64,000 nucleotides of DNA. Source: Sphingobacterium multivorum (GTDB lineage: Bacteria > Bacteroidota > Bacteroidia > Sphingobacteriales > Sphingobacteriaceae). The stretch is from NCBI RefSeq assembly GCF_039511225.1, contig NZ_CP154261.1, positions 2,604,001 to 2,668,000 of the forward strand, read 5' to 3'. Below are positions 12,967-36,650 of the stretch, piece after piece. Made by a program: the position numbers and the translations under genes. The first letter of the stretch is position 1, and each line of letters begins with the position of its first letter. Under the pieces are notes generated by a model. The model did no database searches and was not told where the DNA came from. It saw only the letters and a program-made list of their open reading frames with translations.

Positions 12967-15900
12967 TTAAAAGGTATATCCGATGGAAAGGCTAAAGGAA
13001 CTGCCCACTTTCCGGTTAAAAGTTTCTTTGTCGCCTATGCGCATCTTTTTTGTTCCGTCTTCGGAGGTCTCGTAGTAACCTTCCTCATATTTCTGGGAAA
13101 AACCAAACTTCCATTCGTAGATCTCGTCCCATTCCTGTGTGGGCCATTCGGAGTTTGACAGCCCTTTCCAGCGATCCTGAACTTTGAACGTCTCGGGTCT
13201 GTTCACATAGAAGCGAAACGGACTGTTCAACAGATTGCTCAGGTTCAGTTTAAGATCGAGGTTTTTGTTTTTCAGCAATTTGTAGCTTAACTGTGCGTCG
13301 AGTTGGTTGCGCGGGCGCTCGTATTCAATCAGATCTTCGCTCATGGCTGTCATAAAGGTTTTATAGCCCATATGGTTAAAGGCTACGTTGGCTCCTAAGC
13401 GGTCTCCGGCGTATTGGATGGCCGCGTTATAGACCACTGGTATCTGTCCATAAAGTGGGCGCTTGCTTTTCAGGAATTGCTTTTCACGGTATTCAAAGGT
13501 ATTTCCGTATTTATCGGTGCCGATGCTCTTTGCCCTAAATTCGGCCGACTGCACTTCAGAACTTTGAAGCGTAATGTTTCCGCTGACATTGAAATCCTCC
13601 AATAGGGAACCGGGCGCCATAAAGCCCAGGTTTTTACGGATATCAAACTCCAGTCCCTTTACTTTGGCCCATTCCGAGTTATTGGTGGTCACATAGATGC
13701 GGTGCGACGAATCCATCATCTGCCGGTACAATTCGATTGGGTTCTGAAAATATTTATAGAAAAAGCCGATGGAAATAACTTCGGCAATGGAAGGATACCA
13801 TTCAAAACGCATATCATAATGGTCAATTAAGGTCGACAGCACACCTTCATTCCGACGGTAAGCACCGCCCAATGCGGGGTCCTGCCGTACCATCTTGGAG
13901 TTTTCAATCAATGCCGGCCGCACCACGGACTGTGAGTAGGCCATGCGGATGTTGAAATCGGGTATGGGCGTCAATGTTAGGCTCACCGATGGCAGGTAGC
14001 GCCAGGTTTTCTCTTCGGTTTCGGGATCGGCCGTCATGCCCACCAGTTTGCCCGTTTTGGGATCGACAAAGCGTTGCTTGCGCATCGCAATGGTTCTGGC
14101 GTCCATCTGCAGGTCATTATCGCCATTTTGCAGGCTTTTATACTTGAAGTATTCGGCACGTACACCCCAGACCAGTCGGATCCACGAGTTGAAGCGATTG
14201 TCGAGTAGACCATAGACAGCCTGGTTTATATTTTTCCCTTCGTAAGCACTGACGGAGAATGCCGCTGGATAGTAAAACATGCCATGTAAGGGATCTGTAA
14301 ACTCCAGGTATTTCGACCAGGTGTTGACAGGCGTAAAGGTATTGGCACCGACCGAAACGATAGGCAGCGAAACCCATTCGAACAGGCCATGCCGATCCAT
14401 ATATTGGTATCCGGCTTTGAACGTCTGCTTTTGCCCGAGCCAATTCGTCTGGTAGCTCAATGCACCTTCCGCAATTTTGTTGGTCTCCGTATAATGGTAC
14501 TCGGAGCGTGTAAATGTTCCGTCACCGGCATTGGCGTAGTGCGAAGGGATCACATTATAAAGGGTATCATTTAAGAAACCGATCGGAGCGAGCCAGGCTT
14601 CGGTGGCATCTTTCTCACGGTTGTTCAGCTGATTGCGGGCAATATTCCACTCGAGTTTGAAATTGCCGAACCGATGTTCGCCATCCAGCTTATTCTGCAG
14701 CATATCGATAAATTTGGGACGGTCATATTCGCGGATAGCTGGCCTCGAATCGTAACCAATATCATTTCCCCAGCCTTCGATTACGGAAAACTGATTGTTG
14801 AACATCCGGGAATAGAAATTCCGCGAGGTTATCTTGTGATTTTTGCTGTTCCAGCCCAGGTTGACCAAAGCGCCTAAGCTTGAATTAAAGTTATACTGTG
14901 TTGAGGTCGTTGGATGGATTTCTTTGCCCGTGCTGACATCGAAAGTTGTCCCCTCTACTTTTTGCCAGTTGCCGCGCTCAAAATTGGAGATGTGATCAAT
15001 AGATTGCTCATTTCGGTAACTGAGCGAGCCGACAAATCCAAAGACGCCCTTTGTACCACTATAACTCCGCCCCAGGCTGAACTGGTAGTTTTGCCCGGGT
15101 AGCGCCGTATATTTTCGGGTACCCAAACGCTCCAGTCCGCCGATACGCCCGTTCTGTGCAGCGATCATTTCCGGTGTAAAAGGTTTCACGCCTTCAGGCA
15201 CGGGTTTATAGGGATTGGCAGGGTCATAATTGATCCCGTCGAAAACGGTCAGATCGCGCGGGAAATTACCGCGTGTACCATCGTCAAAGGCGAGGTAATC
15301 TAAGCTGCCGCGACCATAACCCAGGAAATCTTTGCCCGTGGATCCATTGATATATTTACTCCCCACCGAAAAGGAAGTGAAGTTTTTGACCGGAATGGCC
15401 AGGGTGTTGATCTGTACCAGTCCACCGCCAAAACCAAAGCTCAGGTCGGGGGACGAAGATTTGTGAATGATGACATTGTCGATCAGGTTGCTGGGGACAA
15501 TATCAAATTCGAAGTCCCGTACCTGCACGTCTGTACTGGGGAGGGTGGCGCCATCCATCATGGCCAGGTTGTAACGCTCGGCAATACCGCGGATCACCAC
15601 CCGACGGTTGTCGTTTGTACTGACGCCGGAGATGCGTTTGAGGGTCTCACCAACGTTTTTATCCGGTAAAACGGCAATTTGCTCGCGACTGATCCCGTTG
15701 GAGATGGTGGCTTCATTCTTCTGTTTGGCATATAAGGAAGCCACACTTTCCTGTTTATAACTTCCTGTCACGACCACCTGCTCCAGGCTTTTCACCACGC
15801 TCTTCAAAACGATGTTGAGATTGGTCTGTTTGCCGGACTGCACCACGATGTCGGTGATTCTTTTTGTCTGATGCGAAATGTAGCTGACTTCGATGGTATA

Positions 15901-23816: not shown

Positions 23817-24656
23817 CTAGGTAAAATTGTATAAACCCGACATCTCACCAGCGCTATTCTTAAATTCCATAAAATTGATCGCTAGCCGATTTGTACTATT
23901 TAAATATTCGGAAGGGGTGATACCAGTATATTTTTTAAATGCCCTGATGAGGTGAGATTGATCAAAATATCCACTTTCGTGGCTGATCGTCGTTAAGTTT
24001 GTTTCAGCTGATTTGTTGCGTAGCAATTTCAAAAAGGAATGGAATTGGACAATATTACCAAATTTTTTGGGGCTCATTCCCACCTGTTCCGCGAATATTC
24101 TTTCCATATGCCGTTCGGTGTAGCCGCTATATTGGACGATTTGTCCGACGGTAACCAATCCTTTTTGTGCTGTGATATGTTGCAGAACTGCAGGCAGTGG
24201 GCTTCGATTTGGAAACTTCTGCCGGACTGCATAGGCATAAAAGAAGGCATTTAACAGCTGTACTTTCTCCTTTGGCGACTTCGCCTGCAGCAGGTCCTCA
24301 TAAAGCTGTGCAACATACTTCCTAAATACATCTTGCGTAACAATAATTTGATCTTTTAGTGCATGAGCAGCAATACCGAGTAACTTATAGAGCCCATCGG
24401 GTTGGAAGACAATAATAACAAATGAAGTCTGTGCCAGCAGCGCGAGATCCTGGAAATGGCTGATCTGACCATACAAGAAAGAAGCGGGGAGCGGCTGACT
24501 CTCGTTGATGGACAGGTGGCCTTCATTGAGCAGAAATACCATTCCCGTGTTGCCATCGGAAAATAACCGCAGTTTTTTATGCTGATCGCCAGCACTTTCC
24601 AAAAAAAGATAATGTTTGATGTAGGACGATAAAACTTTTGGAGGAAATAGCTGCAT
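23817..24656 (-). CDS. AraC-family transcriptional regulator
   Basis: This 279-aa protein has an N-terminal beta-rich sensing half resembling the DUF6597 type (PPKVLSSYIKHYLFLE, VFLLNEGHLSIN). A C-terminal AraC domain covers about 165-265 (VGQIVQYSGYTERHMERIFAEQVGMSPKKFGNIVQF, LTTISHESGYFDQSHLIRAFKKYTGITPSEYL). The order AraC then nitrilase on one strand suggests it controls the hydrolase and itself. Confidence 0.85.
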   Translation of the reverse strand: MQLFPPKVLSSYIKHYLFLESAGDQHKKLRLFSDGNTGMVFLLNEGHLSINESQPLPASFLYGQISHFQDLALLAQTSFVIIVFQPDGLYKLLGIAAHALKDQIIVTQDVFRKYVAQLYEDLLQAKSPKEKVQLLNAFFYAYAVRQKFPNRSPLPAVLQHITAQKGLVTVGQIVQYSGYTERHMERIFAEQVGMSPKKFGNIVQFHSFLKLLRNKSAETNLTTISHESGYFDQSHLIRAFKKYTGITPSEYLNSTNRLAINFMEFKNSAGEMSGLYNFT

Positions 24657-24794: not shown

Positions 24795-24802
24795 TATATT
24801 TG
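24795..24802 (+). promoter_or_regulatory. TAnnTTTG promoter element of SusC operon
   Basis: TATATTTG matches the Bacteroidota -7 element TAnnTTTG exactly. A convincing -33 TTG was not found. It precedes the leader ORFs and the SusC gene, giving a leader of about 280 nt. Confidence 0.5.
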
Positions 24803-24859
24803 TTTTATCAACCTAGGAGATAAGCCTGTCTTGCGTACAAGCCGCATCTTCCGCACGTA

Positions 24860-24895
24860 ATGATCACAATGTTTCACTTAATTCATTATTTATGA
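24860..24895 (+). CDS. Leader mini-ORF 1 (11 codons)
   Basis: ATG at 24860 opens an 11-codon frame (MITMFHLIHYL) that ends in a TGA overlapping the ATG of the next leader ORF (ATGA). It is only notable together with leader ORF 2 and its place in the SusC operon leader. Translation would deliver ribosomes to the second ORF. Confidence 0.3.
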   Translation: MITMFHLIHYL

Positions 24896-24996
24896 ACGGC
24901 AAATTTTATCTAAACCCTTTCCAACCGAGCGCAGGTCTGCGCAATGGTACATCCTTTTGTTCTGATTTCAATAAGCGAATGTGTAGCTGCGGTTAA
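24892..24996 (+). CDS. Cys-containing leader peptide upstream of SusC
   Basis: This is a 34-codon frame. Cysteines are at positions 23, 31 and 33, and the peptide ends RMCSCG, so two Cys codons lie just before the stop. It begins in an ATGA overlap with mini-ORF 1 and ends 92 nt before the SusC start. Short leader peptides with clustered Cys codons near the end are a known way to sense cysteinyl-tRNA supply in other bacteria. Here that role is inferred, and it fits the sulfur-related genes downstream. Confidence 0.45.
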   Translation: MNGKFYLNPFQPSAGLRNGTSFCSDFNKRMCSCG

Positions 24997-25088
24997 AGGG
25001 AAGTATTTCTTTCTATAAAAGCAGCTTTTTCTGACAAGTAATCAATTGGCGTTGGCACTTGTAAATATTCACTGTTAAAATTTTACCT

Positions 25089-28000
25089 ATGAAAAATAGC
25101 GTATGGAAGTACGCCGTGACAATTTTTTTGTCACATGGTTTGCTATTGCCTGCATTTTCGCAGCAAGCTGAGCCCCTTATTAACGCAACCTTAAAAGGTG
25201 TTGTATTGGATTCGATTACCAATCGGCCTATTGAAGGTGTTACCATAAAGCTCGAAGGTGTTACGCACCAAGTAAAGACCGACGCGTCGGGAAGATTTCA
25301 GTTTGTCACGGGGCAACGGCTTCCGTTGACATTCTCCACTTCATTTTTGGGATATAAAGGTCGAAAGATTACCGCACGGGAGGCGCAGATTCAGATCTTG
25401 CTTCAACCGAGCGTTTCTGACCTGGATGAAGTGGTCGTTGTGGGCTACGGTATACAAAAACGAAGAAGCCTTACGGGCGCAGTTGCCAAGATCGACGCTG
25501 CCGAAGTCAACAAAATTCCGGTAGCCAGTTTTGATGCCCAGTTGCAGGGTAAACTCTCCGGAGTGCAGGTTTCCACCAACTCGGGTGTCCCCGGCGAAAG
25601 TATCTTTCTGCGGGTTCGCGGAACAACATCCATCAACTCCAGTAGCGATCCCTTATATATTATTGATGGCGTATTCTTAAACAATACCTCGCTTCAGAAT
25701 ATCGGACTTGGTGGACGGACCAGTTCACCGCTCACAGATATCAACCCGGCAGATATCGAGTCGATTGAGGTGCTCAAAGATGCTTCGGCAACTGCAATTT
25801 ATGGCTCCCGGGGGGCCAATGGTGTAATTATCATTACCACCAAAAAGGGAAGCTACGGTAGCCGGACCAAAATTGACCTTAACCTGCAGGGAGGCTGGGC
25901 TGAAGCTAATAAATCTTTGTTGCCCAAACTGGCTACAGGTCCCGAAACGGCAACCCTCGCCAACGAGTGGTGGATAAACTCCGGACTGGACAATCCGGCA
26001 TTGAAACAGACTTTCGCCAACAGGCCTTACCGCCCTGTCTCGGAAGGCGGGAAAGGAAATCCCGAAGATCAGCCTACTTACGATCGCCTTGGTTTCCTCT
26101 TGCGCCACGGGAAGCTGCAGGATTATAACATCGGTATACAAGGGGGCGGCGACAAATCGCGGTTTTATATTGGTGCCGGCTACACAGGCCAGGAAGCTTT
26201 TATCAAGGTGATCGACTTCTCGCGTACCAATCTCAAGTTTAATTTTGACCATCAGATCAGCAGCCGTGTGAAGATCGGTCTGACCAATAATTTTTCCAGA
26301 ACTTACCGCAATCAGGCACGTACAGGCGATGGCCCACAGGTAAGCCTGTTCAATTCGGCCGTTTCTTCGGCAACGAATGTGCCGATATTCAATACCGATG
26401 GATCAATCAACGGCACCGATAATACGTATACCCTGGTAGACAACTACGATGTTAATACCACAAGTCTGCGTTATGTGGGAAGTGCCTTTGCGGAAATCGA
26501 TCTGCTAAAGGGACTAAAATTCAAATCCAGCTTTAGTGCCGACTATAACCTCTACGACGAATCACAATACTGGAACAGTAAAACCAGTATCGGTATTGCG
26601 AATAATAATCAGGCCACCTCGGGAATATCAAGAAATGCAACCTGGATCAATGAGCAAACCTTGTCGTATCAGAATGCCTTCGGTAAGCATAGCCTCAATG
26701 CTATTTTGGGAAATACTTTGCAGAGCAATGTGCTTGATTACAAGTATTTGGAGGGGAATGGTTTTGCCAATGATTCCTTTAAACAGATCTCATCGGCAGC
26801 CAATATCATTGCCGCCGACAACTGGACCAAATATACCATTGCTTCCTATTTTGGAAGGGTAGGTTATAGCTATGCTGACCGTTATTTTGCAGAGGCAACC
26901 CTGCGGGCAGATGGCTCGTCCAAGTTTGGTGCCAACAACCGATGGGGGTATTTTCCCGCTTTTTCGGCGGGCTGGCGGATTAGCCAAGAAGCCTTTCTGG
27001 CGGATCAAACCTGGTTAAACGACCTGAAAATAAGGGCTTCCTATGGATTGACGGGCAATCAGGCCGGAATCAGCAATTTCGCCGCCAGAGGTCTTTGGTC
27101 GGGCAATGAAAAATATGCGGACAGCTATGGCAAGGTGTTGCCAAGTACAGGGCCTTTCCAGCTGGGCAACGAAAATCTGCGCTGGGAGAAAACAGCACAG
27201 GCCGATCTTGGGCTAGATGTGGCGTTATTCAAAAATCGCCTGTCCATTACCGTGGATCTTTATCATAAATATACCTCCGATCTGCTGCTCGAGCGACCTA
27301 TTGTCGGCAGTTCCGGTTTTTCAAAGTATTGGGCCAATGTGGGCGAGATCAGCAACAAAGGCTATGAAGTGTTGATCAATTCGCTCAACGTGAAAACAAA
27401 AGACTTTACCTGGAATACAAGCTTCAACATCTCGGGTAATAAAAATAAAATCGAGAAACTGCCAACGCAGATCACCCAGTATACCCGCGATTGGGTGATC
27501 CTGAAAGAAGGTTATTCGCTCAACTCATTCTGGCTGTATGAGCAGTTGTATGTCGATCCACAGACCGGAAAGGCGGTATTTGACGGACAGCTGAGCGATG
27601 GTTCTTTGCCCACTTCGGCACGCAAGGTATTTCGCAATGCCTATCCCAAGTTTTATGGTGGTATAGGCAATACCTTTACCTATAAAAACTTCGATCTGGG
27701 TGTAGACTTTAGTTTTCAATATGGCAATTACGCGGTGAACCTCAATCGCTATTTCAGAGAGCGTAATCCCAGCAGTGGTGGGGTGTTTCAAAATGTGCTT
27801 AACAGATGGCAACAACCCGGGGATATCACCGATGTGCCCCGGCTGACATCGGAAGGGCTCAACTATACCATCGATGCCAATAGCCGTTATCTCGAAGATG
27901 CCTCGTTTTTGAAACTCAGACAATTGTCATTTGGATATAAACTCCCGAAAGAGCTGGTAGAGCGGGCTAAACTGACTGCTGCGCGTATCTATTTTGTAGG

Positions 28001-28142
28001 TTCCAACCTCTTTGTCTGGAGCAAATATACAGGCGATCCGGAATCGAATGTCACCAGCAACCCAAATGCGCAGGGGATAGGTTCATTTGGAACTCCACCA
28101 CAGCCCCGTACGTTTCAACTTGGGCTCAATGTTACTCTATAA
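25089..28142 (+). CDS. SusC-family TonB-linked outer membrane transporter
   Basis: This 1017-aa protein has a signal peptide (to about residue 25, LLPAFSQQ), a carboxypeptidase-regulatory-like domain (about 35-110) and the TonB-box-like LDEVVVVGYG. The plug has the SusC signatures DPLYIIDGVFL and SIEVLKDASATAIYGSRGANGVIIITTKKG. A large beta-barrel ends with RTFQLGLNVTL. It pairs with the SusD lipoprotein encoded 25 bp downstream to import a ligand into the periplasm. The ligand is unknown; the rest of the operon points to a sulfur compound rather than a glycan, since no glycosidase is present. Confidence 0.95.
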   Translation: MKNSVWKYAVTIFLSHGLLLPAFSQQAEPLINATLKGVVLDSITNRPIEGVTIKLEGVTHQVKTDASGRFQFVTGQRLPLTFSTSFLGYKGRKITAREAQIQILLQPSVSDLDEVVVVGYGIQKRRSLTGAVAKIDAAEVNKIPVASFDAQLQGKLSGVQVSTNSGVPGESIFLRVRGTTSINSSSDPLYIIDGVFLNNTSLQNIGLGGRTSSPLTDINPADIESIEVLKDASATAIYGSRGANGVIIITTKKGSYGSRTKIDLNLQGGWAEANKSLLPKLATGPETATLANEWWINSGLDNPALKQTFANRPYRPVSEGGKGNPEDQPTYDRLGFLLRHGKLQDYNIGIQGGGDKSRFYIGAGYTGQEAFIKVIDFSRTNLKFNFDHQISSRVKIGLTNNFSRTYRNQARTGDGPQVSLFNSAVSSATNVPIFNTDGSINGTDNTYTLVDNYDVNTTSLRYVGSAFAEIDLLKGLKFKSSFSADYNLYDESQYWNSKTSIGIANNNQATSGISRNATWINEQTLSYQNAFGKHSLNAILGNTLQSNVLDYKYLEGNGFANDSFKQISSAANIIAADNWTKYTIASYFGRVGYSYADRYFAEATLRADGSSKFGANNRWGYFPAFSAGWRISQEAFLADQTWLNDLKIRASYGLTGNQAGISNFAARGLWSGNEKYADSYGKVLPSTGPFQLGNENLRWEKTAQADLGLDVALFKNRLSITVDLYHKYTSDLLLERPIVGSSGFSKYWANVGEISNKGYEVLINSLNVKTKDFTWNTSFNISGNKNKIEKLPTQITQYTRDWVILKEGYSLNSFWLYEQLYVDPQTGKAVFDGQLSDGSLPTSARKVFRNAYPKFYGGIGNTFTYKNFDLGVDFSFQYGNYAVNLNRYFRERNPSSGGVFQNVLNRWQQPGDITDVPRLTSEGLNYTIDANSRYLEDASFLKLRQLSFGYKLPKELVERAKLTAARIYFVGSNLFVWSKYTGDPESNVTSNPNAQGIGSFGTPPQPRTFQLGLNVTL

Positions 28143-28167
28143 ACGTTAACCTTAATCCGTAAAGCTC

Positions 28168-29535
28168 ATGAAAAAAATTATATATTTCCTTTATCCACTT
28201 CTTGTCCTTCAGCTCAGTGGCTGCAGTTCTTTTTTGGAAGTTGAGCCCAGAAGTTCTGTATCTGATGAAGTGACTATTGTCGATGCGAGTTCTGCTGCAA
28301 CAGCAGTACGAGGCATCTACTCTGCACTTCGGTCCAACGATTATTATGGTTATAGCTTTCAGCTGCTGGGATTCTTTTCGGCAGACAATATTGTATATCG
28401 AGGTAGCCAGACTGTCCATCAGACCCTAACCAATCATACGGTTAAATCCGACCTTGCCGTGTTGGCTACCGCATGGAACCAGATTTATGCCACCATCAAT
28501 AGGACCAACCATGTAATCAGCAAAGTACCCAACCTAGCGTTGACGACGACTTTCACCGAAGCTTACCGCAACCAGCTTGTGGGGGAAGCCTATTTTGTGC
28601 GCGCACTGGCGTATTTTGATCTGGCCAGAACCTGGGGTGGTGTACAGATCGTGTTGCAGCCGACAACTTCGGCCAGCAGTCTGCCGCAGGTCAAAAGAAG
28701 CTCCCTGGCCGACACCTATGCGCAGGTGCTGCAGGACCTGCAAAAAGCGGAACAGCTCTTGCCCAATGACACCAATCGCATCCGCGCTACCAAGAAAACA
28801 GCCCGCGCGCTGCTGGCAAGATTTTACCTCTACCAGAAAAACTGGAGCGAAGCCATAAAATATGCATCCTATATTATTGACGACAACGCCAATTATAGCT
28901 TGGTCAATCCATACCGCTCGTTTTATGCCAACAATACCTCCAACACCAAAGAGTCTGTCTTCGAATTGGTCTATGATATCAACAATACCAGCGGTCAGGC
29001 CAGTCAATGGTTATCGGGCAATAATGGCGGGACTGCATGGATCAGACCTTCGCAGGGGATCTACGACCTGCTGGTGGATCCCACGATCGGGGGAGACCGT
29101 GCTGCGCTCGTATCCAAAACCTCTTCATCCACCGATCCGAATATCCTGATTGGCAATCTCTATTACCGAACAGACCGTACTGATCCCGTCTTTTTAATCC
29201 GTACGGCCGAGCTTTATCTGATCCGTGCCGAAGCCTTGGCTCAGCGGAATGGTTCGGGCGATCTGACAGCAGCATTGGCTGACTTAAATGCCGTACGCTC
29301 GCGCGCCAACATTAAACCGTTGCAAGGTCTGGGAGCTGCAGCACTGCTGCAGGCCGTGGAAGATGAAAATCGCGTGGAATTTGCGCTGGAGAACCATCGC
29401 TGGTATGATCTTTTGCGGACGGGACGTGCACAGCAGGTGCTTAATATTTCTTCCGTGAATAGGCTTTTGCTGCCGATACCGTACGCTCAGGTTTCGATAG
29501 ATCCGGATCTACAGCAAAATCCTGGCTTGGATTGA
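28168..29535 (+). CDS. SusD/RagB-family surface lipoprotein
   Basis: This 455-aa lipoprotein has a lipobox LQLSGC (Cys19). Typical SusD features are the early TPR-like helices with EAYFVRALAYFDLARTWGG near 140-160, and a C-terminal part with RTAELYLIRAEALAQRNG, DLNAVRSRAN and VEDENRVEFALENHRWYDLLRTGRA. The protein forms the lid over the SusC channel and binds substrate. The length is slightly short for the family. It is followed by a T8 tract that may weaken downstream transcription. Confidence 0.95.
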   Translation: MKKIIYFLYPLLVLQLSGCSSFLEVEPRSSVSDEVTIVDASSAATAVRGIYSALRSNDYYGYSFQLLGFFSADNIVYRGSQTVHQTLTNHTVKSDLAVLATAWNQIYATINRTNHVISKVPNLALTTTFTEAYRNQLVGEAYFVRALAYFDLARTWGGVQIVLQPTTSASSLPQVKRSSLADTYAQVLQDLQKAEQLLPNDTNRIRATKKTARALLARFYLYQKNWSEAIKYASYIIDDNANYSLVNPYRSFYANNTSNTKESVFELVYDINNTSGQASQWLSGNNGGTAWIRPSQGIYDLLVDPTIGGDRAALVSKTSSSTDPNILIGNLYYRTDRTDPVFLIRTAELYLIRAEALAQRNGSGDLTAALADLNAVRSRANIKPLQGLGAAALLQAVEDENRVEFALENHRWYDLLRTGRAQQVLNISSVNRLLLPIPYAQVSIDPDLQQNPGLD

Positions 29536-29558
29536 TCCATGAATCAGGTGTTTTTTTT
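29531..29558 (+). terminator. Possible weak attenuator after SusD
   Basis: A short stem (TGAT / ATCA around CCATGA) overlaps the SusD stop codon and is followed by eight T residues (29551-29558). The stem is weak, so partial read-through into the membrane protein genes is expected. Confidence 0.25.
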
Positions 29559-29575
29559 CATTTAATCGTATTGAA

Positions 29576-30925
29576 ATGACCATATTAACAGACTCTCATT
29601 TTTTTAAGCGCCATCGCTCAGCGATCGCATACATTGGCCTGATTTTCTTTTTGATACTAAGTATCCCTTACGACCCCAATCTTTTTAAGGACCGTTCATG
29701 TGGGGATCTGTTTTCCTTGGAGAACTGGTTTGCGTTGGCCACTTACCGCACATCTTTTATTGCGGAGAGCCCTTACGTCGGTACGGATGTACGCGGATAT
29801 TACAATTGGGCTATTGCGCTGCTGCTCGCGTTGTTGCTATTTTGGGCCTTTGGTCGTAAAATCAGGCAAAGTTTTCAGGCCAATGATGATAGTGTATTTT
29901 ATTGGCTTCGCGTCCTGCTACGCTATCGTTTAGCCCTGGCAATGATTTTCATTGGTCTTGTCAAAATCATCCCTATACAACTTCCCGAACCGACCATTAG
30001 CGAGCTGCATACCGAATACGGTGATTTCCTGCTCTGGAAGCTCTATTACCTGACCAACGGCATTGCAACCGCGGGCTATCTACCGGTAATTGGTGCACTG
30101 GAGATTGTGAGTGGACTCTTTTTACTGAACCGGCGCACAGCAATCATCGGGTCGGGGCTGCTTATCGCTGTATTGCTCAATGTTGTTATCGTCAACTATG
30201 TCTACGAAATCGGTGAGCAGGTGTATAGTTCATTTTTACTACTGTTTGCGGTCGTGATCTTCTCGTACGACTGGCCCCGTTTTTATCAGCTCCTGATCAA
30301 AAAGGGAGCAACTGTTCCCGACGGGTTTTGGCCTGTATATGGACGCCGCATTGCGCGCATTCGCCCTTATCTGCAGGTCTTATTCCTGCTACTGATAGCG
30401 GTATTTAGCGTGCAGGCTTACTTGAGCTGGAAAAATTCGGATTATCCCTTCCCCGATGAAAAAGGGTTGGAAGGAGCAGCAGGGGTATACAATGTGAAAG
30501 ATTTCGTGTGGAAGGGCGATACCATCCCGTATTCGCTGAGCGATACATTGCGGTGGAAGGACGTAGTTTTTGAAAAATGGAATACGCTCAGCATACGCGG
30601 AAACCGTTCTGTACGGGTTGATAGCCTCAAACCACGTATCGCCTTCAACCGCGAGCGTAACTACGAATACCTAGGCAATGGTGGCCGCGAATTCTTTGCT
30701 TATGCGATCAAAAAAGGAGCAAACAAGGCGGAGACAGCGATCAAATTGACGGGAAAGGTCAGTAAAGGCCACACCTTTTCCTTTGTGGTCAATCGCCCGG
30801 ATAAGCGCACGCTTGTGCTTGATGGTGTCAACCAACTCGGCGATTCCCTGCATGTGCGCCTGGAGAAAATAAACAAGAAATACCTCTTGCAGGAGGGACG
30901 CAGAAAGCCGATCCGTATTTATTAA
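29576..30925 (+). CDS. DoxX-like membrane protein with periplasmic C-domain (A)
   Basis: This 449-aa protein has about seven membrane helices in residues 15-290 and a soluble, beta-rich C-terminal domain (about 300-449). The segment FYWLRVLLRYRLALAMIFIGLVKIIPIQLP is nearly repeated in the next gene's product. The helical core resembles the Bacteroidota DoxX-like group, related by fold to thiosulfate:quinone oxidoreductase DoxD. That relation is inference. The tandem arrangement suggests a heteromeric membrane complex. No Cys pair or heme motif is evident. Confidence 0.6.
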   Translation: MTILTDSHFFKRHRSAIAYIGLIFFLILSIPYDPNLFKDRSCGDLFSLENWFALATYRTSFIAESPYVGTDVRGYYNWAIALLLALLLFWAFGRKIRQSFQANDDSVFYWLRVLLRYRLALAMIFIGLVKIIPIQLPEPTISELHTEYGDFLLWKLYYLTNGIATAGYLPVIGALEIVSGLFLLNRRTAIIGSGLLIAVLLNVVIVNYVYEIGEQVYSSFLLLFAVVIFSYDWPRFYQLLIKKGATVPDGFWPVYGRRIARIRPYLQVLFLLLIAVFSVQAYLSWKNSDYPFPDEKGLEGAAGVYNVKDFVWKGDTIPYSLSDTLRWKDVVFEKWNTLSIRGNRSVRVDSLKPRIAFNRERNYEYLGNGGREFFAYAIKKGANKAETAIKLTGKVSKGHTFSFVVNRPDKRTLVLDGVNQLGDSLHVRLEKINKKYLLQEGRRKPIRIY

Positions 30926-30946
30926 CGATTCATTTAGACTAAGCTT

Positions 30947-32416
30947 ATGGCAACGATTCAATATTTGGAAAGCACTCCAACCAGCCAGCAGGGGCAGGGC
31001 TGGAAATACTGGGAGAAAGTGGGATTTAGATTTACTTTTATTTTCTTTATCCTGATGGTAGTACCCCTGGATGGGGACTGGTACGAAAAAGTATTTAAAC
31101 CCGATTCGTTATACGATTGGATGGCAACGATCGCCGGTGGCTCGCGCACAGGTTGGATAGAAATAGACAGCGAAAGTGGCAAATGGGGGTTCGCGTCGTA
31201 CACGTCCTGGTGGCTCAATGGCGTGATAGCTGTGCTGGGCGCTTCCATTTGGACGATATTGGCCCGGAATAGCAAGGTGCAACGCTACGATGCGCTTTAT
31301 TATTGGTTGCGGGTGTTGGTACGTTACCGCATTGCTTTGGGACTTATCGCCTTTGGATTTATCAAGTTCTTTCCGATGCAGATGCCATTTCCATCGCTTG
31401 CCAATCTGAATACCGACATCGGCGAATATGCTCCCTTTAAGTTGTACTGGCAGATCGTCGGTGTATCCTATAAGTATGAGATTTTCTTAGGCTTTTTGGA
31501 GATCGCCGCAGGAAGTTTACTCTTCTTCAGGCCTACTGTTGTCATCGGGGCCATTATCAATGCGGGCGTGCTCTTTAACATCGCTCATGCCAATATCGCC
31601 TATGACGGCGCGGTACACGTATACAGTTCGTATTTTGTTCTGCTTTCCCTTTTTCTATTGCTCCAGTACCTGCCAGCGATCTGGAAGCTCTTTATCTTGC
31701 GTGAACCGGTGAGCACCTATTACTATGTGCCCAAGTTTCTCAAGCAGTGGAATAAACCCCTGTATTTCGGCTTTAAGTCAGTCATTGTGGTGCTGTTTAT
31801 ATTTGTTTACGGCTTTTACCGCTATGAGCGATTCTATGATGAAGGACGTTTAAAGGAACCGGTGCTTCCAGGGCTGGCAAAAGCAGCAGGACATTATGAA
31901 GTTTCGGGTTTTCTGCTCAATGGAAAGCCACAGCCTTATTCACCGGCCGATTCGGTACGTTGGCATGAAGCCTTTTTTGAACGCTATTCGACCTTGGTCT
32001 ATAAGGTCAATAAAGCCAATTCCATCGATCTTGGCAATGGCACTCCGGCCTTGAATGATGTGCTCAAAACGTATGAATTTACAGGCCGGGCGGGAGGAAA
32101 GAACTACCTGTATTATGAAATAGACTCGGCAGAACATGCACTGTACCTGATCGACAAAAATCAGAAATTTAGTAAGGAGCAACGAAAAAAACTCGATGAA
32201 AAACTGGATGTGGGACTGAAGGCCCTGTATGGAAAAGCACAGGGCGATAGCTTAGGTATTCTGAAATGGGCTTACGAACGACCAACGCCAGAACAGATTA
32301 GACTCAAGGGGCTAGACGCCAGTGGTAATAACTTTGAAATTACGCTCGACCGGGTTAAAGAATCCTATCTCACCGGTAAAGAATGGTATATGAAAAACAC
32401 CCTCTTTACCTATTAA
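30947..32416 (+). CDS. DoxX-like membrane protein with periplasmic C-domain (B)
   Basis: This 489-aa protein is a paralogue of the preceding gene's product. It has membrane helices over about 25-295, including YYWLRVLVRYRIALGLIAFGFIKFFPMQMP, and a C-terminal soluble domain (about 305-489) with GHYEVSGFLLNGKPQPYSPADSVRW, matching AGVYNVKDFVWKGDTIPYSLSDTLRW in copy A. A conserved HANIAYDGAVHVYSSYF stretch replaces the VNYVYEIGEQVYSSFL of A. It is in the middle of the SusCD operon (21 bp gap). A role in electron transfer or sulfur oxidation at the inner membrane is possible but unproven. Confidence 0.6.
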   Translation: MATIQYLESTPTSQQGQGWKYWEKVGFRFTFIFFILMVVPLDGDWYEKVFKPDSLYDWMATIAGGSRTGWIEIDSESGKWGFASYTSWWLNGVIAVLGASIWTILARNSKVQRYDALYYWLRVLVRYRIALGLIAFGFIKFFPMQMPFPSLANLNTDIGEYAPFKLYWQIVGVSYKYEIFLGFLEIAAGSLLFFRPTVVIGAIINAGVLFNIAHANIAYDGAVHVYSSYFVLLSLFLLLQYLPAIWKLFILREPVSTYYYVPKFLKQWNKPLYFGFKSVIVVLFIFVYGFYRYERFYDEGRLKEPVLPGLAKAAGHYEVSGFLLNGKPQPYSPADSVRWHEAFFERYSTLVYKVNKANSIDLGNGTPALNDVLKTYEFTGRAGGKNYLYYEIDSAEHALYLIDKNQKFSKEQRKKLDEKLDVGLKALYGKAQGDSLGILKWAYERPTPEQIRLKGLDASGNNFEITLDRVKESYLTGKEWYMKNTLFTY

Positions 32417-32438
32417 TCACCTTAAAAAATAGCATGTT

Positions 32439-33890
32439 ATGAATAGAAGATCATTTATCCACCGTTCAGCTGTCCTTTTCACGCTTGCTTCGGCAGGCCA
32501 GGGCATATCCTGTTTTGGAAATACCGATCACAGGGGGGCGGGCTACAGTATCAAACAGTTCGAAGATGAGGGCCTCGCACAGTTTTCCTATGCGATTTTG
32601 GCCGATAAGAAAATTGTGCTTGTGGACCCTGCCCGTGATCCCAGGCCTTATTACGCTTATGCAAAGGAACAGGGTGCCACAATTATCGCCGTTGTGGAGA
32701 CCCATCCGCATGCTGATTTTGTGAGTTCACATCTGGAGATCCACCAAGAAGGAAAAATTCCGATTTATGTCAGCAAGCTAGTTCGTGCAACGTATCCGCA
32801 TCATACGTTTGATAATGGCGATAGGTTGAAGATTTCGGACCATATTGTGTTGCATGCCATCAACACCGCTGGTCATTCACCTGATAGTATCTCTATTCTG
32901 TTAAAAGAAAACGGTCGCGATGTGGCGATCTTTTCGGGGGATGCGGTGCTGATTGGCGGGGTGGGAAGGCCCGATTTGCGCGAGTATTCGGGTGAGCAGG
33001 CGACAGTACGCGAAAAATTGGCGCGGCAGCTCTATCATACCGTGCATGATGTCTATGCCAACTTAGGCGATCAGGTGCTTCTGTATCCGGGCCATGGTGC
33101 TGGGTCGCTCTGTGGCAATGCCATAAAAGGCGCGAAGCAAAGTACCATTGGTGCAGAAAGAACGCATAATTTTGCCTTCCAGCAACAATCCGAAGAAGCG
33201 TTTGTCAAACAGATACTAGCAGACCGTCCACCCATACCGATCTATTTTCCCTATAATGTGGCGTTAAATCGTCGGGGAGCAAAGCCATTGTTGGCTTCGT
33301 TGTCGGGTATTTCATTGGTTTCGGCAGCTGCGGTGCCTCATGGATCAAGCACTGTCCTTGACACACGCTCAGCTTCAAAATTTAGAGCGTCGCATTTTCC
33401 GGAGGCCATTAATATCCCCGAACGGAGCAAGTCGGAATCTTGGGTCGGGACTTTTATTGAACCGAAAGACGGTTTTTATCTCGTTGTGGATACCAAAGAA
33501 CAGGGGCAGCTGCAGCTTGAAAAATTGGCCAAAATTGGCTATGAGCAGTTTGTAAAAGGGATTGTGCTGTATGGGGATTTCGCAGGGCAGCCTTCGACAG
33601 CTTTTGACCAGACTGCTTTCGACCGGGCGCAAGATCACTATTTTATCGTCGACGTACGCACCGCCGAGGAGGCTAAGGCCGGGCCAGTATTCAAGGGGGC
33701 GCATAACATTCCGCTGGCGGAACTGAAGCAGCATATTGCCGAGCTACCGGTCGATAAACCTATTGTCGTGCACTGCGCTTCGGGTTATCGTTCGGCCATT
33801 GCAAGTAGCCTGATCAATGAATCGCTGCCAAAAGCGCAGGTCTGGGATATCGGAGAACATATTAAAACCTACAAGCAATCGGTGAATTAA
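32439..33890 (+). CDS. CstB-like MBL-fold / rhodanese protein (persulfide dioxygenase type)
   Basis: This 483-aa exported protein has a twin-arginine-like N-terminus (NRRSFIHRS) and a Cys at 25. The metallo-beta-lactamase domain (about 35-285) has His89-Pro-His91-Ala-Asp93, then AGHSPDS, GDAVLIGGVGRPDL and YPGHGAGSLCG. This is the pattern of ETHE1/CstB persulfide dioxygenases. Two rhodanese domains follow. The first (about 305-380) lacks a Cys in the active loop. The second (about 400-480) has Cys446 in VHCASGYRS. This MBL-pseudo-rhodanese-rhodanese order is that of CstB, which oxidises persulfides. Tat export would place it in the periplasm. Confidence 0.85.
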   Translation: MNRRSFIHRSAVLFTLASAGQGISCFGNTDHRGAGYSIKQFEDEGLAQFSYAILADKKIVLVDPARDPRPYYAYAKEQGATIIAVVETHPHADFVSSHLEIHQEGKIPIYVSKLVRATYPHHTFDNGDRLKISDHIVLHAINTAGHSPDSISILLKENGRDVAIFSGDAVLIGGVGRPDLREYSGEQATVREKLARQLYHTVHDVYANLGDQVLLYPGHGAGSLCGNAIKGAKQSTIGAERTHNFAFQQQSEEAFVKQILADRPPIPIYFPYNVALNRRGAKPLLASLSGISLVSAAAVPHGSSTVLDTRSASKFRASHFPEAINIPERSKSESWVGTFIEPKDGFYLVVDTKEQGQLQLEKLAKIGYEQFVKGIVLYGDFAGQPSTAFDQTAFDRAQDHYFIVDVRTAEEAKAGPVFKGAHNIPLAELKQHIAELPVDKPIVVHCASGYRSAIASSLINESLPKAQVWDIGEHIKTYKQSVN

Positions 33891-33922
33891 CACGAGGGAT
33901 TACACTTAAATGCATACATGAT

Positions 33923-34594
33923 ATGAAAGATTTAAAACTATTGGCTACGATGTTGTTAGCAGTGGCAGTGTTACTCAATATGACGAACTGCCAATCCAGA
34001 CAGGACACCCAGGAAGCCGTAAAAAATAGTCAGGTTTCGTTTAAAAAGGAAGAAGGAGTGCGCTTTAAGCAGGAGCTCGAAAGCCTGAATAAAACGAATA
34101 AAGTGCCGGTACAGATTCCCGACAATCCGCGGATCGTTTATGCGACCGAACAGGATGTGCTGGAGCTGGAAAACGGCATTGTGCTGTTTGGATGGCCCAG
34201 TTGTCCATGGTTTCGCAATGCCATAACGCCATTGCTGGAATTTGCCCAGGAGGAAAAGGCGGCCATCTATTACCTCAATATCCACGATATCCGGGATCTC
34301 AAAGAGAAGGATAAAGAAGGTAAGGTGATCACAACCAAGGCGGGTAGCCCCGGCTATGAAGCTATTTTGGCCAAATTTCATGATATCCTCAATCCCTATA
34401 CGGCTGTGGGCGTAGACTCTATCAAACGGATTTCTTCACCAACGGTGTTATTTATTGAAAAAGGCAAAGGTGTGCATAAGGTTGTTTCGACGGTCGTATC
34501 GCAGACCGATCCGAAGATCAAGCTCGATAGCACACAACAGCAGGAGTTAAAGCAACGGTATCGCGCATATTTTTTAGATGAACATACGATTTAA
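33923..34594 (+). CDS. Thioredoxin-like lipoprotein with a single active-site Cys
   Basis: This 223-aa lipoprotein has a lipobox LLNMTNC (Cys23). From about residue 70 the protein reads as a thioredoxin-like fold: IVLFGWPSCPWFRNAITPLLEFA, a long loop, then the cis-Pro segment SSPTVLFIEKGKGV. The usual CxxC is reduced to one Cys (Cys94, followed by PWF), so it may form mixed disulfides or persulfides rather than act as a dithiol oxidoreductase. The shape recalls bacteriocin-transport-accessory-type thioredoxins. It lies 33 bp after the CstB-like gene. Confidence 0.7.
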   Translation: MKDLKLLATMLLAVAVLLNMTNCQSRQDTQEAVKNSQVSFKKEEGVRFKQELESLNKTNKVPVQIPDNPRIVYATEQDVLELENGIVLFGWPSCPWFRNAITPLLEFAQEEKAAIYYLNIHDIRDLKEKDKEGKVITTKAGSPGYEAILAKFHDILNPYTAVGVDSIKRISSPTVLFIEKGKGVHKVVSTVVSQTDPKIKLDSTQQQELKQRYRAYFLDEHTI

Positions 34595-34637
34595 GACCAC
34601 AGGATTTCAACAGCATCATAAATTAAATGGATAACAT

Positions 34638-34799
34638 ATGAAAAAAATAATCAATCTTGGACTTTTAGCGTTTGTTTTAACGACATTTACAGTATCCTGT
34701 GGATCTGCAGGCAAGAAAAAGGAAAATGGCAAAGCACAGTCGGATTCCACATCATCAAAAGGTTCTAAAAAGGATCAGCCCAATACGGGCTGCGACTAA
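34638..34799 (+). CDS. 53-aa lipoprotein with C-terminal Cys
   Basis: The 54-codon frame starts at the ATG at 34638, with an A-rich region before it. The product has a lipoprotein signal (LLAFVLTTFTVSC, Cys21), then a Lys/Ser-rich hydrophilic tail ending NTGCD. The mature peptide is only about 33 residues. The Cys next to the C-terminus is unusual and could take part in thiol chemistry with the neighbouring thioredoxin-like lipoprotein, which is inference. Its place between two operon genes with 20-40 bp gaps supports it as real. Confidence 0.65.
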   Translation: MKKIINLGLLAFVLTTFTVSCGSAGKKKENGKAQSDSTSSKGSKKDQPNTGCD

Positions 34800-34820
34800 T
34801 AGACTGTAACACGATAACAC

Positions 34821-36248
34821 ATGCGAAGATTTGACGCAATTATTATTGGCTCGGGACCGAACGGACTGGCGGCAGCCATTACCTTTCAGCAACAGGGGCT
34901 CAGCACCCTGCTGATTGAAGGTGCCGATACGGTCGGTGGGGGAATGCGGACCAAGGAACTTACACTTGCGGGCTTCAAACATGATGTTTGTTCGGCAATC
35001 CATCCCATGGCCATGGCCTCGCCATTTTTCAGGAAGTTGCCTTTGGAAGTTTTTGGGCTATCGTTTGTGAAGCCGACATATGCGGCGGCACACCCACTGG
35101 ACAATGGGGAAACGGGAATTCTTTACCATAGTCTTGCCGAAACCGTCGAGGGCCTGGGAGTGGACGGTGAAAGCTATTGCAAGCTGGTGGAAAAGGTTGC
35201 AACACATTGGGACGAACTAGCGGACGATATTATGGGGCCCTTGGCCTTACCAAAGCATCCGTTGCGATTAGCTTCCTTTGGTCTGGATGCGCTTCAGCCG
35301 GCAAGTTGGACGGCAAAGCGTTTTGCCAGTGCACAGGCTAAGGCATTATGGGCCGGCATGGCCGCCCATGGTATTCAGCCGCTAAGCAATTGGACAACCT
35401 CCGCCATTGCTATTGTGCTCGCTGCGGTAGGCAACAAATATGGCTGGCAAATTCCAGTAGGTGGTTCGCAGTCCATTGCCGATGCCTTATTAAGTTATTA
35501 CCAATCGTTGGGCGGGGAGATCCAAACGGGCTTTTGGGTAGAGGATATCCGTGATCTGCCGTCCCATAAAGTCCTACTCTGTGATATCACACCCCGGCAG
35601 TTGCTCGCGCTTAAAGGAATAAATCTGGCTAGCAGCTACCGCAGGCGTCTTGAAGGCTTTCGACAGGGGATGGGGGTCTTTAAAGTTGACTGGGCATTGT
35701 CAGAAAAGACGCCCTTTAAAGATCGGCGCTGTCAGCAGGCCGCTACCGTGCACTTGGGCAATACCTACGCTGAAATTGCCGAGAGCGAACGGCTGAGTCA
35801 TCTTGGAAAGCAAGTCGACAAGCCATTTGTGCTGTTTACACAGCAGAGTGCATTTGATTCCAGTCGTGCTCCCGATGGAAAGCATACGGGATGGGCCTAC
35901 TGTCATGTCCCCAATGGAAGTAGGGTGGATTATACCGAAGCGATCGAAACTCAGATCGAGCGCTTTGCTCCGGGTTTTAAAGAAACCATTCTGGCCAAGC
36001 ATACCTTTTCTCCTGCGGAGCTCGAGTTGTACAATCCCAATTACATTGGTGGTGATATCAATGGCGGTATTATGGATGTTTCGCAACTGTACAGTAGACC
36101 TATTTTGGCCCTAAACCCGTATCGCACGTCGGTAGACAGCATTTATCTCTGTTCATCATCGACGCCTCCGGGAGGTGGGGTGCATGGCATGTGCGGTTAT
36201 CATGCCGCACGTACAGCGCTCAAAGAACATTTTGGCTTGTTGCCGTAA
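34821..36248 (+). CDS. Phytoene-desaturase-like FAD oxidoreductase
   Basis: This 475-aa flavoprotein has an N-terminal Rossmann dinucleotide site GSGPNGLAAA (about 11-20) and GGGMRT near 40, typical of the phytoene dehydrogenase / PYROXD2 group. C-terminal motifs include GWAYCHVPNGS, the conserved YNPNYIGGDINGGIMDVSQL and CSSSTPPGGGVHGMCGYHAA, all usual for this group. It has no signal peptide, so it should be cytoplasmic. The substrate is unknown. It is the last gene of the SusCD operon, and a terminator follows at 36459. It may oxidise the imported compound or a product. Confidence 0.85.
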   Translation: MRRFDAIIIGSGPNGLAAAITFQQQGLSTLLIEGADTVGGGMRTKELTLAGFKHDVCSAIHPMAMASPFFRKLPLEVFGLSFVKPTYAAAHPLDNGETGILYHSLAETVEGLGVDGESYCKLVEKVATHWDELADDIMGPLALPKHPLRLASFGLDALQPASWTAKRFASAQAKALWAGMAAHGIQPLSNWTTSAIAIVLAAVGNKYGWQIPVGGSQSIADALLSYYQSLGGEIQTGFWVEDIRDLPSHKVLLCDITPRQLLALKGINLASSYRRRLEGFRQGMGVFKVDWALSEKTPFKDRRCQQAATVHLGNTYAEIAESERLSHLGKQVDKPFVLFTQQSAFDSSRAPDGKHTGWAYCHVPNGSRVDYTEAIETQIERFAPGFKETILAKHTFSPAELELYNPNYIGGDINGGIMDVSQLYSRPILALNPYRTSVDSIYLCSSSTPPGGGVHGMCGYHAARTALKEHFGLLP

Positions 36249-36299
36249 ATGGCGCTAATGTACTTGTTGTCATAAATGGCACCGACCGGCTTGTTGTTA
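36246..36299 (+). repeat. Imperfect 27-bp tandem duplication
   Basis: Two adjacent 27-bp units share TAAATGGC at the start and CTTGTTGT near the end. The first starts at the FAD oxidoreductase stop codon. It may be a relic of slippage at the gene end. Confidence 0.4.
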
Positions 36300-36650
36300 A
36301 CTTACACAGCTGCCTGGGAACAGGTGATTTTTGCCGTTTTATATTTTTCTGGAGCATAGGGCCTTTAGGAAAAATAGACTAATGAGTATGTTTTTGTAAT
36401 TTCGGCAGTATTTTTGCTGTATAGGGCTACGAAAACACCCCAAATAATATGTTGCATCAGGCCAAGATAATTTCTTGGCCTTTTGTATGTACTTTACCTT
36501 AAGAAAAACACAGGCAAATATATAATTCTGTAAAGCGATACAATAATTGACGCAACCTCTCGGAATATAATTTCACTTAATTTCACATGAGTTTTGAAGA
36601 GCGGACATTGTTGGAAACATGTGTTCGAATTTGTAATTAATTGTGGTATT
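36249..36650. other. Intergenic with terminator
   Basis: After the tandem duplication there is a terminator at 36459-36484. The last 150 bp are AT-rich and should contain the promoter of the SDR gene. No gene was seen. Confidence 0.4.
36459..36484 (+). terminator. Intrinsic terminator of the SusCD operon
   Basis: AGGCCAAGA and TCTTGGCCT form a 9-bp stem with a 5-nt loop, followed by TTTTG on the plus strand. It lies about 210 nt after the last stop codon of the operon. Confidence 0.7.

Follow-up and report, generated by a model that had tools for sequence, protein, structure and literature searches.

Why should a SusC/SusD pair stand at the head of an operon whose remaining genes look like sulfur-redox proteins? 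Such pairs (SusCD) are commonly taken for importers of glycans, and no ligand has been assigned to many of those that lack carbohydrate enzymes. The question is raised by eight colinear open reading frames (ORFs), all on the + strand, at 25089-36248 of a 64,000-nucleotide stretch of Sphingobacterium multivorum DNA (the window, positions 2604001-2668000 of a 5.95 Mb single-contig genome), in which susC and susD are followed by genes for two DoxX-like membrane proteins, a metallo-beta-lactamase (MBL)-rhodanese protein, a thioredoxin-like lipoprotein, a tiny lipoprotein and a flavoenzyme. An earlier examination of the letters alone, the sequence-only reading, had proposed that this operon imports an organosulfur compound or handles reactive sulfur in the periplasm. 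Comparative genomics now supports this proposal well, because SusCD and the DoxX-like pair co-occur with sulfur genes, the SusC proteins form a distinct clade, and a leader with a cysteine mini-ORF is shared with sulfatase, SoxC and YeiH operons. We put at roughly two in three the probability that the operon serves sulfur scavenging and belongs, with several others, to a regulon that appears to respond to the supply of cysteine. The strongest evidence lies in the leader and in the SoxC and sulfatase branches, none of which figured in the sequence-only reading.

A cysteine-codon leader and its distribution

Upstream of susC, a frame test picks out a mini-ORF at 24979..24996 (+), ATG TGT AGC TGC GGT TAA, whose predicted translation MCSCG* would make it a Cys-coding leader ORF and thus a putative cysteine leader peptide. 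Folds place a putative attenuator hairpin at 24985..25031 (+; AGCTGC...GCAGCT, with an inner GGGAAG...CTTTC helix and a TTTTTC tail), the stem of which overlaps codons 3-4 of the mini-ORF. A conserved stem-loop, ACAAGT-AATCAATTGGCGTTGGC-ACTTGT, follows at 25034..25062 (+), 26 nt before the susC start, and in orthologues ATTGGCGTTGGCACTTGT recurs upstream, at some 44 nt from that start.

The distribution of this leader points to sulfur. Allowing up to two mismatches, its 18-mer has five sites in the whole 5.95 Mb genome, one of them mismatched, and all five precede TonB-dependent receptors. Two of these are DoxX-linked SusCs, one belongs to a SusCD accompanied by a sulfatase and one to a SusCD on its own, and the fifth is a non-SusC receptor beside a YeiH gene. 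The exact 18-mer is present in 49/81 Sphingobacterium genomes and its backward control in none. Behind it stand operons with sulfatases, SoxC, TauE-like or YeiH-like transporters or the flavoenzyme, or with adjoining encapsulin genes, and in one blast set a sulfur gene lies within 11 kb in 40 of the 49 leader-bearing loci. When DoxX-linked loci are excluded, sulfur genes are found at 14/21 leader loci against 1/20 SusC loci without leader in the own genome (Fisher p 5e-5), a contrast somewhat biased toward the leader group because the sulfatase references were drawn from leader loci.

The mini-ORF itself carries a coding signal. CGAATGTGY occurs in most leaders, some 60-115 nt 5' of the conserved motif, and of the 41 leaders with CGAATG, 39 have a stop in this frame no more than five codons on, as compared with 6 and 3 for the other two frames. 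Codon 2 is Cys in 34 of these 41, with a further Cys in 16, and such ORFs appear in shuffled leaders at about 1/55, against 34 real ones. The resulting Met-Cys peptides have mostly 2-5 residues (MCSCG in the window; MCS, MCR, MCC, MCTC, MCCY and MCCQM elsewhere). Other genera, in which the leader sequence differs, show the same tendency before DoxX-linked susC, with MCCCN, MC, MCC, MRCCCCCA and even MRCCCCCCA, in 11/33 cases versus 2.1 (maximum 7) in shuffles. Another match to GCGAATGTGY in the own genome (L250) was set aside, as no long ORF lies 3' of it.

A hairpin stands behind the mini-ORF in 23/49 leaders versus 3.0 in shuffles, often as GGGGAAGC-GCTTCCCC followed by a tail rich in U, and at four of its pairs both sides have changed. 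The arms of the stem-loop vary from locus to locus without loss of complementarity (ACAAGT/ACTTGT, ACAGGT/ACCTGT, ATCAGT/ACTGAT). The loop core exists in either orientation: some loci have CAATTGGCGTTGG, and others have AACGCCAAT, which reverse-complements a part of CAATTGGCGTTGG. In some loci of other genera (L085, L093, L094, L098, L106, L111, L167, L170 and L171), AACGCCAAT, which is the reverse complement of ATTGGCGTT, sits about 90 nt before the start as against 65 nt. A covariance model gives the window leader 94 bits, recovers all five leaders of the own genome, and, outside the genus, also matches directly 5' of a DoxX-linked SusC (G161; by distance G140). Searches of the leader against Rfam, at gathering and at permissive thresholds, returned nothing credible. 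The single-sequence fold suggested a three-way-junction riboswitch, a candidate that we rejected: the alignment fold prefers to pair the mini-ORF with GGCACUUG, at a weak energy of -1.9 kcal/mol. Because the two folds disagree and the energy is weak, our structural claim is limited to the two hairpins.

The receptors and the sulfur modules behind them

The absence of co-occurrence in relatives had been set beforehand as the finding that would count against the sequence-only reading. SusCD and the DoxX-like pair instead recur together beside independent sulfur genes, with about 55 such loci across Sphingobacteriaceae and related Bacteroidota. Neighbourhoods were read as 20-kb regions around DoxX-like matches, with partner genes named by models. 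DoxX-like B has matches in 136/251 family genomes (E<=0.001), a count that includes shorter solo relatives and many tandem pairs; the solo relatives, 420-460 aa long and without SusCD, are a different group. In nearly all regions read, SusC and SusD stand ahead of the DoxX-like pair, in some cases with a gene for an S51 peptidase in between, and interchangeable sulfur modules come after it. The module of the window is the CstB-like MBL-rhodanese; others comprise SoxC with cytochrome c, a YeiH-type transporter, CDO/rhodanese or, in the own genome, encapsulin-2A with cysteine desulfurase. SoxC (TIGR04555), the family 2A encapsulin shell and its cysteine desulfurase cargo score over curated cut-offs. 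Further partners named are cytochrome c, a cyanophycinase-like S51 protein, YeiH-like PF03601 (a 'putative sulfate exporter' by model name only), CDO_I, a four-domain rhodanese and the Na/sulfate symporter family. SoxC was also searched independently, and 34 genomes carry it above cut-off; the positions from both searches put it no more than 10 kb from a DoxX-like gene in at least 31 of the 34, and in the remaining three loci SoxC occurs without the pair.

The own genome holds a second DoxX-linked SusCD operon (L089, 4386500-4406400), all colinear, with genes for a cytochrome c, SoxC, a TIGR01777 protein, the encapsulin 2A shell, the cysteine desulfurase cargo and, by our own reading, a serine acetyltransferase-like protein.

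The receptors of these loci also stand apart. In a tree of 80 receptors, built by a quick method and with some long branches elsewhere, 33/35 DoxX-linked SusCs fall into one clade (SH-aLRT 100, branch 0.49), together with two unlabelled rows that are both located in such loci; the two labelled rows outside it belong to a second receptor type beside a linked SusC. Among the many SusCs of the own genome, the nearest to that of the window is the other DoxX-linked one, at 1004 bits, and the next scores 450. The N-terminal domain of the window SusC is common to four other receptors of the own genome, and a search with it ranks the five leader-bearing receptors first (self 205 bits, the others 91-94, the next 46). 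The same leader and N-terminal domain are found on a non-SusC TonB-dependent receptor (L179, 15475-12845; own genome near 5510435), as though the two had moved together, as a single unit, from one receptor to another; there may be a dedicated TonB partner.

The eight genes and their boundaries

The tight arrangement that the sequence-only reading had described is there, with gaps of 25, 40, 21, 22, 32, 43 and 21 bp, in order. Gene order and composition are kept in a dozen Sphingobacterium genomes, and the arrangement is therefore not a product of chance. The start assigned earlier, 24795, is that of a putative promoter box, TATATTTG (24795..24802, +), which fits the Bacteroidota -7 element TAnnTTTG and is kept in most orthologous upstream regions; the end assigned earlier falls just past an intrinsic terminator-like hairpin with a T run, AGGCCAAG...CTTGGCCT (36459..36481, +). 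A sigma-54 reading of TTGGCAC was dropped, there being no GC at the -12 position. An AraC-type regulator is encoded divergently 5' of the operon (23817-24656, -), and is unlikely to be the conserved regulator because only one other relative read (L081) has it in the matching position.

The importer pair is secure. SusC, a TonB-dependent receptor of 1017 aa (25089..28142, +), matches TIGR04056 with 809 bits, and the adjacent SusD-family lipoprotein of 455 aa (28168..29535, +) matches PF14322 and PF07980. Among the eight genes, Pfam and NCBIfam models find no carbohydrate-active enzyme of the kind that marks a polysaccharide utilisation locus, and the operon contains no sulfatase, as had been noticed from the letters.

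The two DoxX-like proteins, A (449 aa; 29576..30925, +) and B (489 aa, with a C-terminal beta domain; 30947..32416, +), are present and paired as first described, and hhalign suggests a weak kinship of their core to DoxX (81%, E 1.2e-5, in one comparison against four DoxX proteins). The family name fared less well: neither protein is assigned to a Pfam or NCBIfam family (the best Pfam hit has E 0.09, and PF07681 does not recognise them), and a profile search of the PDB with them gave no match. The AlphaFold model of B is poor (pLDDT 60), and its PDB matches to a lipocalin-like barrel are only a hint. Neither A nor B has a conserved Cys. An electron path from this pair to quinone is weakly suggested by analogy with DoxDA.

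The MBL-rhodanese protein (483 aa; 32439..33890, +; PF00753 and two PF00581 stretches) has the CstB architecture and the Tat motif that had been attributed to it. From residue 37 to 460 it matches 3R2U (E 4e-46), which we take to be staphylococcal CstB, and 3TP9 (E 3e-64), with site residues aligned: its ETHPHAD (HPHAD at 89-93), GHSPDS and SGD face ETHIHAD, GHTPES and SGD of 3R2U. By this alignment it has the 2-His-1-Asp site whose residues bind iron in enzymes of the ETHE1 and persulfide dioxygenase (PDO) kind, and HxHADF is kept in 20/20 orthologues. Its only Cys residues are 25, 225 in the MBL domain and 446 in the last rhodanese; the middle rhodanese has neither Cys nor CxxGxR and the C-terminal one retains its Cys, as in CstB. 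The protein is probably exported, given its Tat motif NRRSF (RRxF near the N-terminus in 20/20 orthologues), and its family suggests that it would oxidise persulfide to sulfite. Against NF040641, the NCBIfam model for the Blh bifunctional sulfur transferase/dioxygenase, it reaches just 22.5 bits versus a curated score of 625. The protein of S. multivorum NCTC11343 is 95% identical, and an ordinary paralogue of about 32% identity is present throughout the genus. In some relatives an exported protein of 250-270 aa, of no known family and with a CGC motif, lies between DoxX-like B and the MBL-rhodanese or beside the latter (L072 11464-12222, L085 10272-11090, L143).

Both lipoproteins are as the sequence-only reading had them. 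The thioredoxin-like one (223 aa; 33923..34594, +) adopts a thioredoxin fold in its model (pLDDT 80), and Foldseek returns thioredoxins with a probability near 1 and a best E of only 5e-3; its single, active-site Cys lies in WPSCPWF, conserved as CPWF or CPWL in orthologues, which makes it a monothiol thioredoxin. A CPWC paralogue adjoins it in L072. The tiny one (53 aa; 34638..34799, +) ends in PNTGCD, and its lipobox Cys and C-terminal TGCD are invariant in orthologues, with a variable linker. We infer that the two could act as persulfide carriers.

The last gene encodes an FAD-dependent oxidoreductase (475 aa; 34821..36248, +) without visible signal peptide. It had been likened to phytoene desaturases and is indeed nearest to CrtO/CrtI, as a distant relative scoring far under their cut-offs. 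It lies 3' of most DoxX-like operons and of several other leader-bearing ones, and may be a general enzyme of the sulfur regulon, because it is found with YeiH where the DoxX-like pair is absent. Such loci, with both genes behind leader-bearing receptors, are L209, L213, L223, L225, L226 and L228.

Proposed sulfur scavenging, its rivals and known systems

The pathway that we propose would begin at the leader. With Cys-tRNA plentiful, MCSCG* would be translated and the hairpin behind it would stop transcription; with cysteine short, the ribosome would stall on the Cys codons and the operon would be transcribed. SusCD would then import a sulfur compound that porins cannot provide because of its size or dilution, and the DoxX-like pair in the membrane, plausibly quinone-linked, would help to oxidise the sulfane sulfur of this compound or the compound itself. 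Persulfide might be held or handed on by the two lipoproteins, the monothiol thioredoxin-like one and the one ending in TGCD; it would be oxidised to sulfite (or thiosulfate) by the Tat-exported MBL-rhodanese, and the oxyanion would be taken up for assimilation. Sister operons would reach the same end through SoxC, which would turn sulfite into sulfate, or through sulfatases, which would free sulfate from esters, so that oxidation in the DoxX-like branch and hydrolysis in the sulfatase branches would all put sulfite, thiosulfate or sulfate in the periplasm. Only tentatively, and with the odds against so specific a scheme, we would extend this to a family of Cys-sensing attenuators (Met-Cys mini-ORFs up to MRCCCCCCA, hairpin and stem-loop) that controls a Bacteroidota regulon of sulfur-scavenging TonB-dependent receptors, in which the dedicated SusC clade feeds organosulfur to the DoxX-like pair and interchangeable periplasmic sulfur oxidases, and the window's lipid-anchored TGCD peptide of about 30 residues is a minimal sulfur carrier of the swinging-arm kind, analogous in function to SoxY.

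Several observations weigh against sulfur scavenging under cysteine control. About 12 of the 41 leaders are those of direct orthologues of the window operon; some leaders lack Cys at codon 2 (MRT in L089, MRR in L155, M in L204); and the window hairpin is not unusually stable (leader z -1.3) nor flagged by a terminator scan. The kinship to DoxX is weak, and in the operon's description no part is weaker than this identity. In L078 (about 13000-13340), the leader precedes genes for DoxX-like A and B, MBL-rhodanese, thioredoxin-like protein, tiny lipoprotein, FAD enzyme and an MFS protein, and SusCD has shrunk to a 47-aa SusC remnant; because this locus keeps the leader and the oxidising genes without an intact SusCD, the parts of the operon can separate, and the oxidising part may work without SusCD. 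Persulfide oxidation could also be detoxification instead of supply.

This last point leads to a rather improbable alternative, in which the operon serves to clear polysulfide or persulfide stress in the periplasm: its CstB-like and thioredoxin-like proteins and its rhodanese parts would detoxify, and SusCD would be a bystander or import a thiol. CstB is a sulfide and persulfide stress enzyme in Staphylococcus, a monothiol thioredoxin and a Cys lipoprotein are at hand, and L078 does without an intact importer; however, a cysteine-codon leader common to sulfatase operons points to starvation rather than stress, and defence has no need of a large-ligand importer, let alone of a dedicated SusC clade in strict linkage. 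Less probable still is a litho- or mixotrophic gain of energy, in which sulfur compounds are oxidised for their electrons (from the DoxX-like pair to quinone, from SoxC to cytochrome c), with YeiH as the exporter of sulfate. DoxDA, a thiosulfate:quinone oxidoreductase, is a precedent, and many sister operons have SoxC with cytochrome c and the 'putative sulfate exporter'. Yet a leader with Cys codons fits assimilation, the sulfatase operons that share it provide no electrons, the window operon has neither cytochrome nor SoxC, and the neighbourhoods read, which were not complemented by a genome-wide search, showed no noticeable soxB, soxAX or soxYZ. An unlikely reading, to which we nevertheless give somewhat more weight, concerns regulation: the stem-loop would be an operator or promoter element through which some other regulator controls the regulon in place of attenuation, the Cys mini-ORF being secondary or a by-product of the conserved motif. 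The loop core comes in both orientations, as a protein-binding DNA site could, and the stem-loop is conserved beyond the needs of attenuation; but the frame-specific stops and the poly-Cys mini-ORFs of other genera call for a translated peptide, and the arms differ between loci while complementarity is kept.

Should sulfur scavenging under cysteine control hold, the signature of cysteine mini-ORF with stem-loop, SusC clade and N-terminal domain would allow ligands of orphan SusCD pairs to be predicted and tested. It also connects encapsulin-2A and SoxC with the uptake of organosulfur, and hints at an expression switch in Bacteroidota that responds to cysteine. One paper on Flavobacterium psychrophilum reports clues that operons for amino-acid biosynthesis are controlled by attenuation at a leader peptide in front of them (PMC9723704). 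Literature searches on SusC with DoxX or sulfite dehydrogenase, SusD with sulfur limitation or thiosulfate, and SusCD with persulfide, which left most subscription papers uncovered, gave nothing relevant; the components are known, and in the literature searched the combination, the SusC clade and a cysteine leader before TonB-dependent receptors were not found. The sulfur use of SusCD that the sequence-only reading had thought undescribed thus has no published description there.

Each component has a known counterpart from which it departs. With SusCD polysaccharide utilisation loci the operon shares SusC and SusD families at its start and outer-membrane ligand uptake, but it has sulfur-redox partners and a cysteine leader in place of a carbohydrate-active enzyme. 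The MBL-rhodanese resembles CstB and other persulfide dioxygenase-rhodanese fusions (3R2U, 3TP9; BpPRF 5VE3) in its MBL iron-site residues, its MBL-domain Cys and, as aligned with 3R2U, its inactive middle and active C-terminal rhodanese; it differs by its Tat motif, its setting in a SusCD operon and the accompanying DoxX-like pair. In profile comparison the membrane core of that pair looks akin to DoxDA and the DoxX family, but the pair is much longer, with extra helices, a C-terminal beta domain, adjacent paralogues and no Pfam hit. Cysteine mini-ORFs act as amino-acid attenuators in mycobacteria, and the leader is like them in placing a short Cys-coding ORF ahead of a hairpin; it differs in belonging to Bacteroidota, in preceding TonB-dependent receptors, in its extra stem-loop, in an ORF as minimal as Met-Cys-stop and in matching no Rfam family. 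Sister operons approach SoxCD, with SoxC above the TIGR04555 cut-off and cytochrome c, without SoxB, SoxAX or SoxYZ noticed nearby in the regions read, and the window has the MBL-rhodanese instead. Finally, the family 2A encapsulin and its cysteine desulfurase cargo, both above curated cut-offs, lie outside the window, directly 3' in the second DoxX-like operon of the same genome, where they are linked to SusCD and SoxC.

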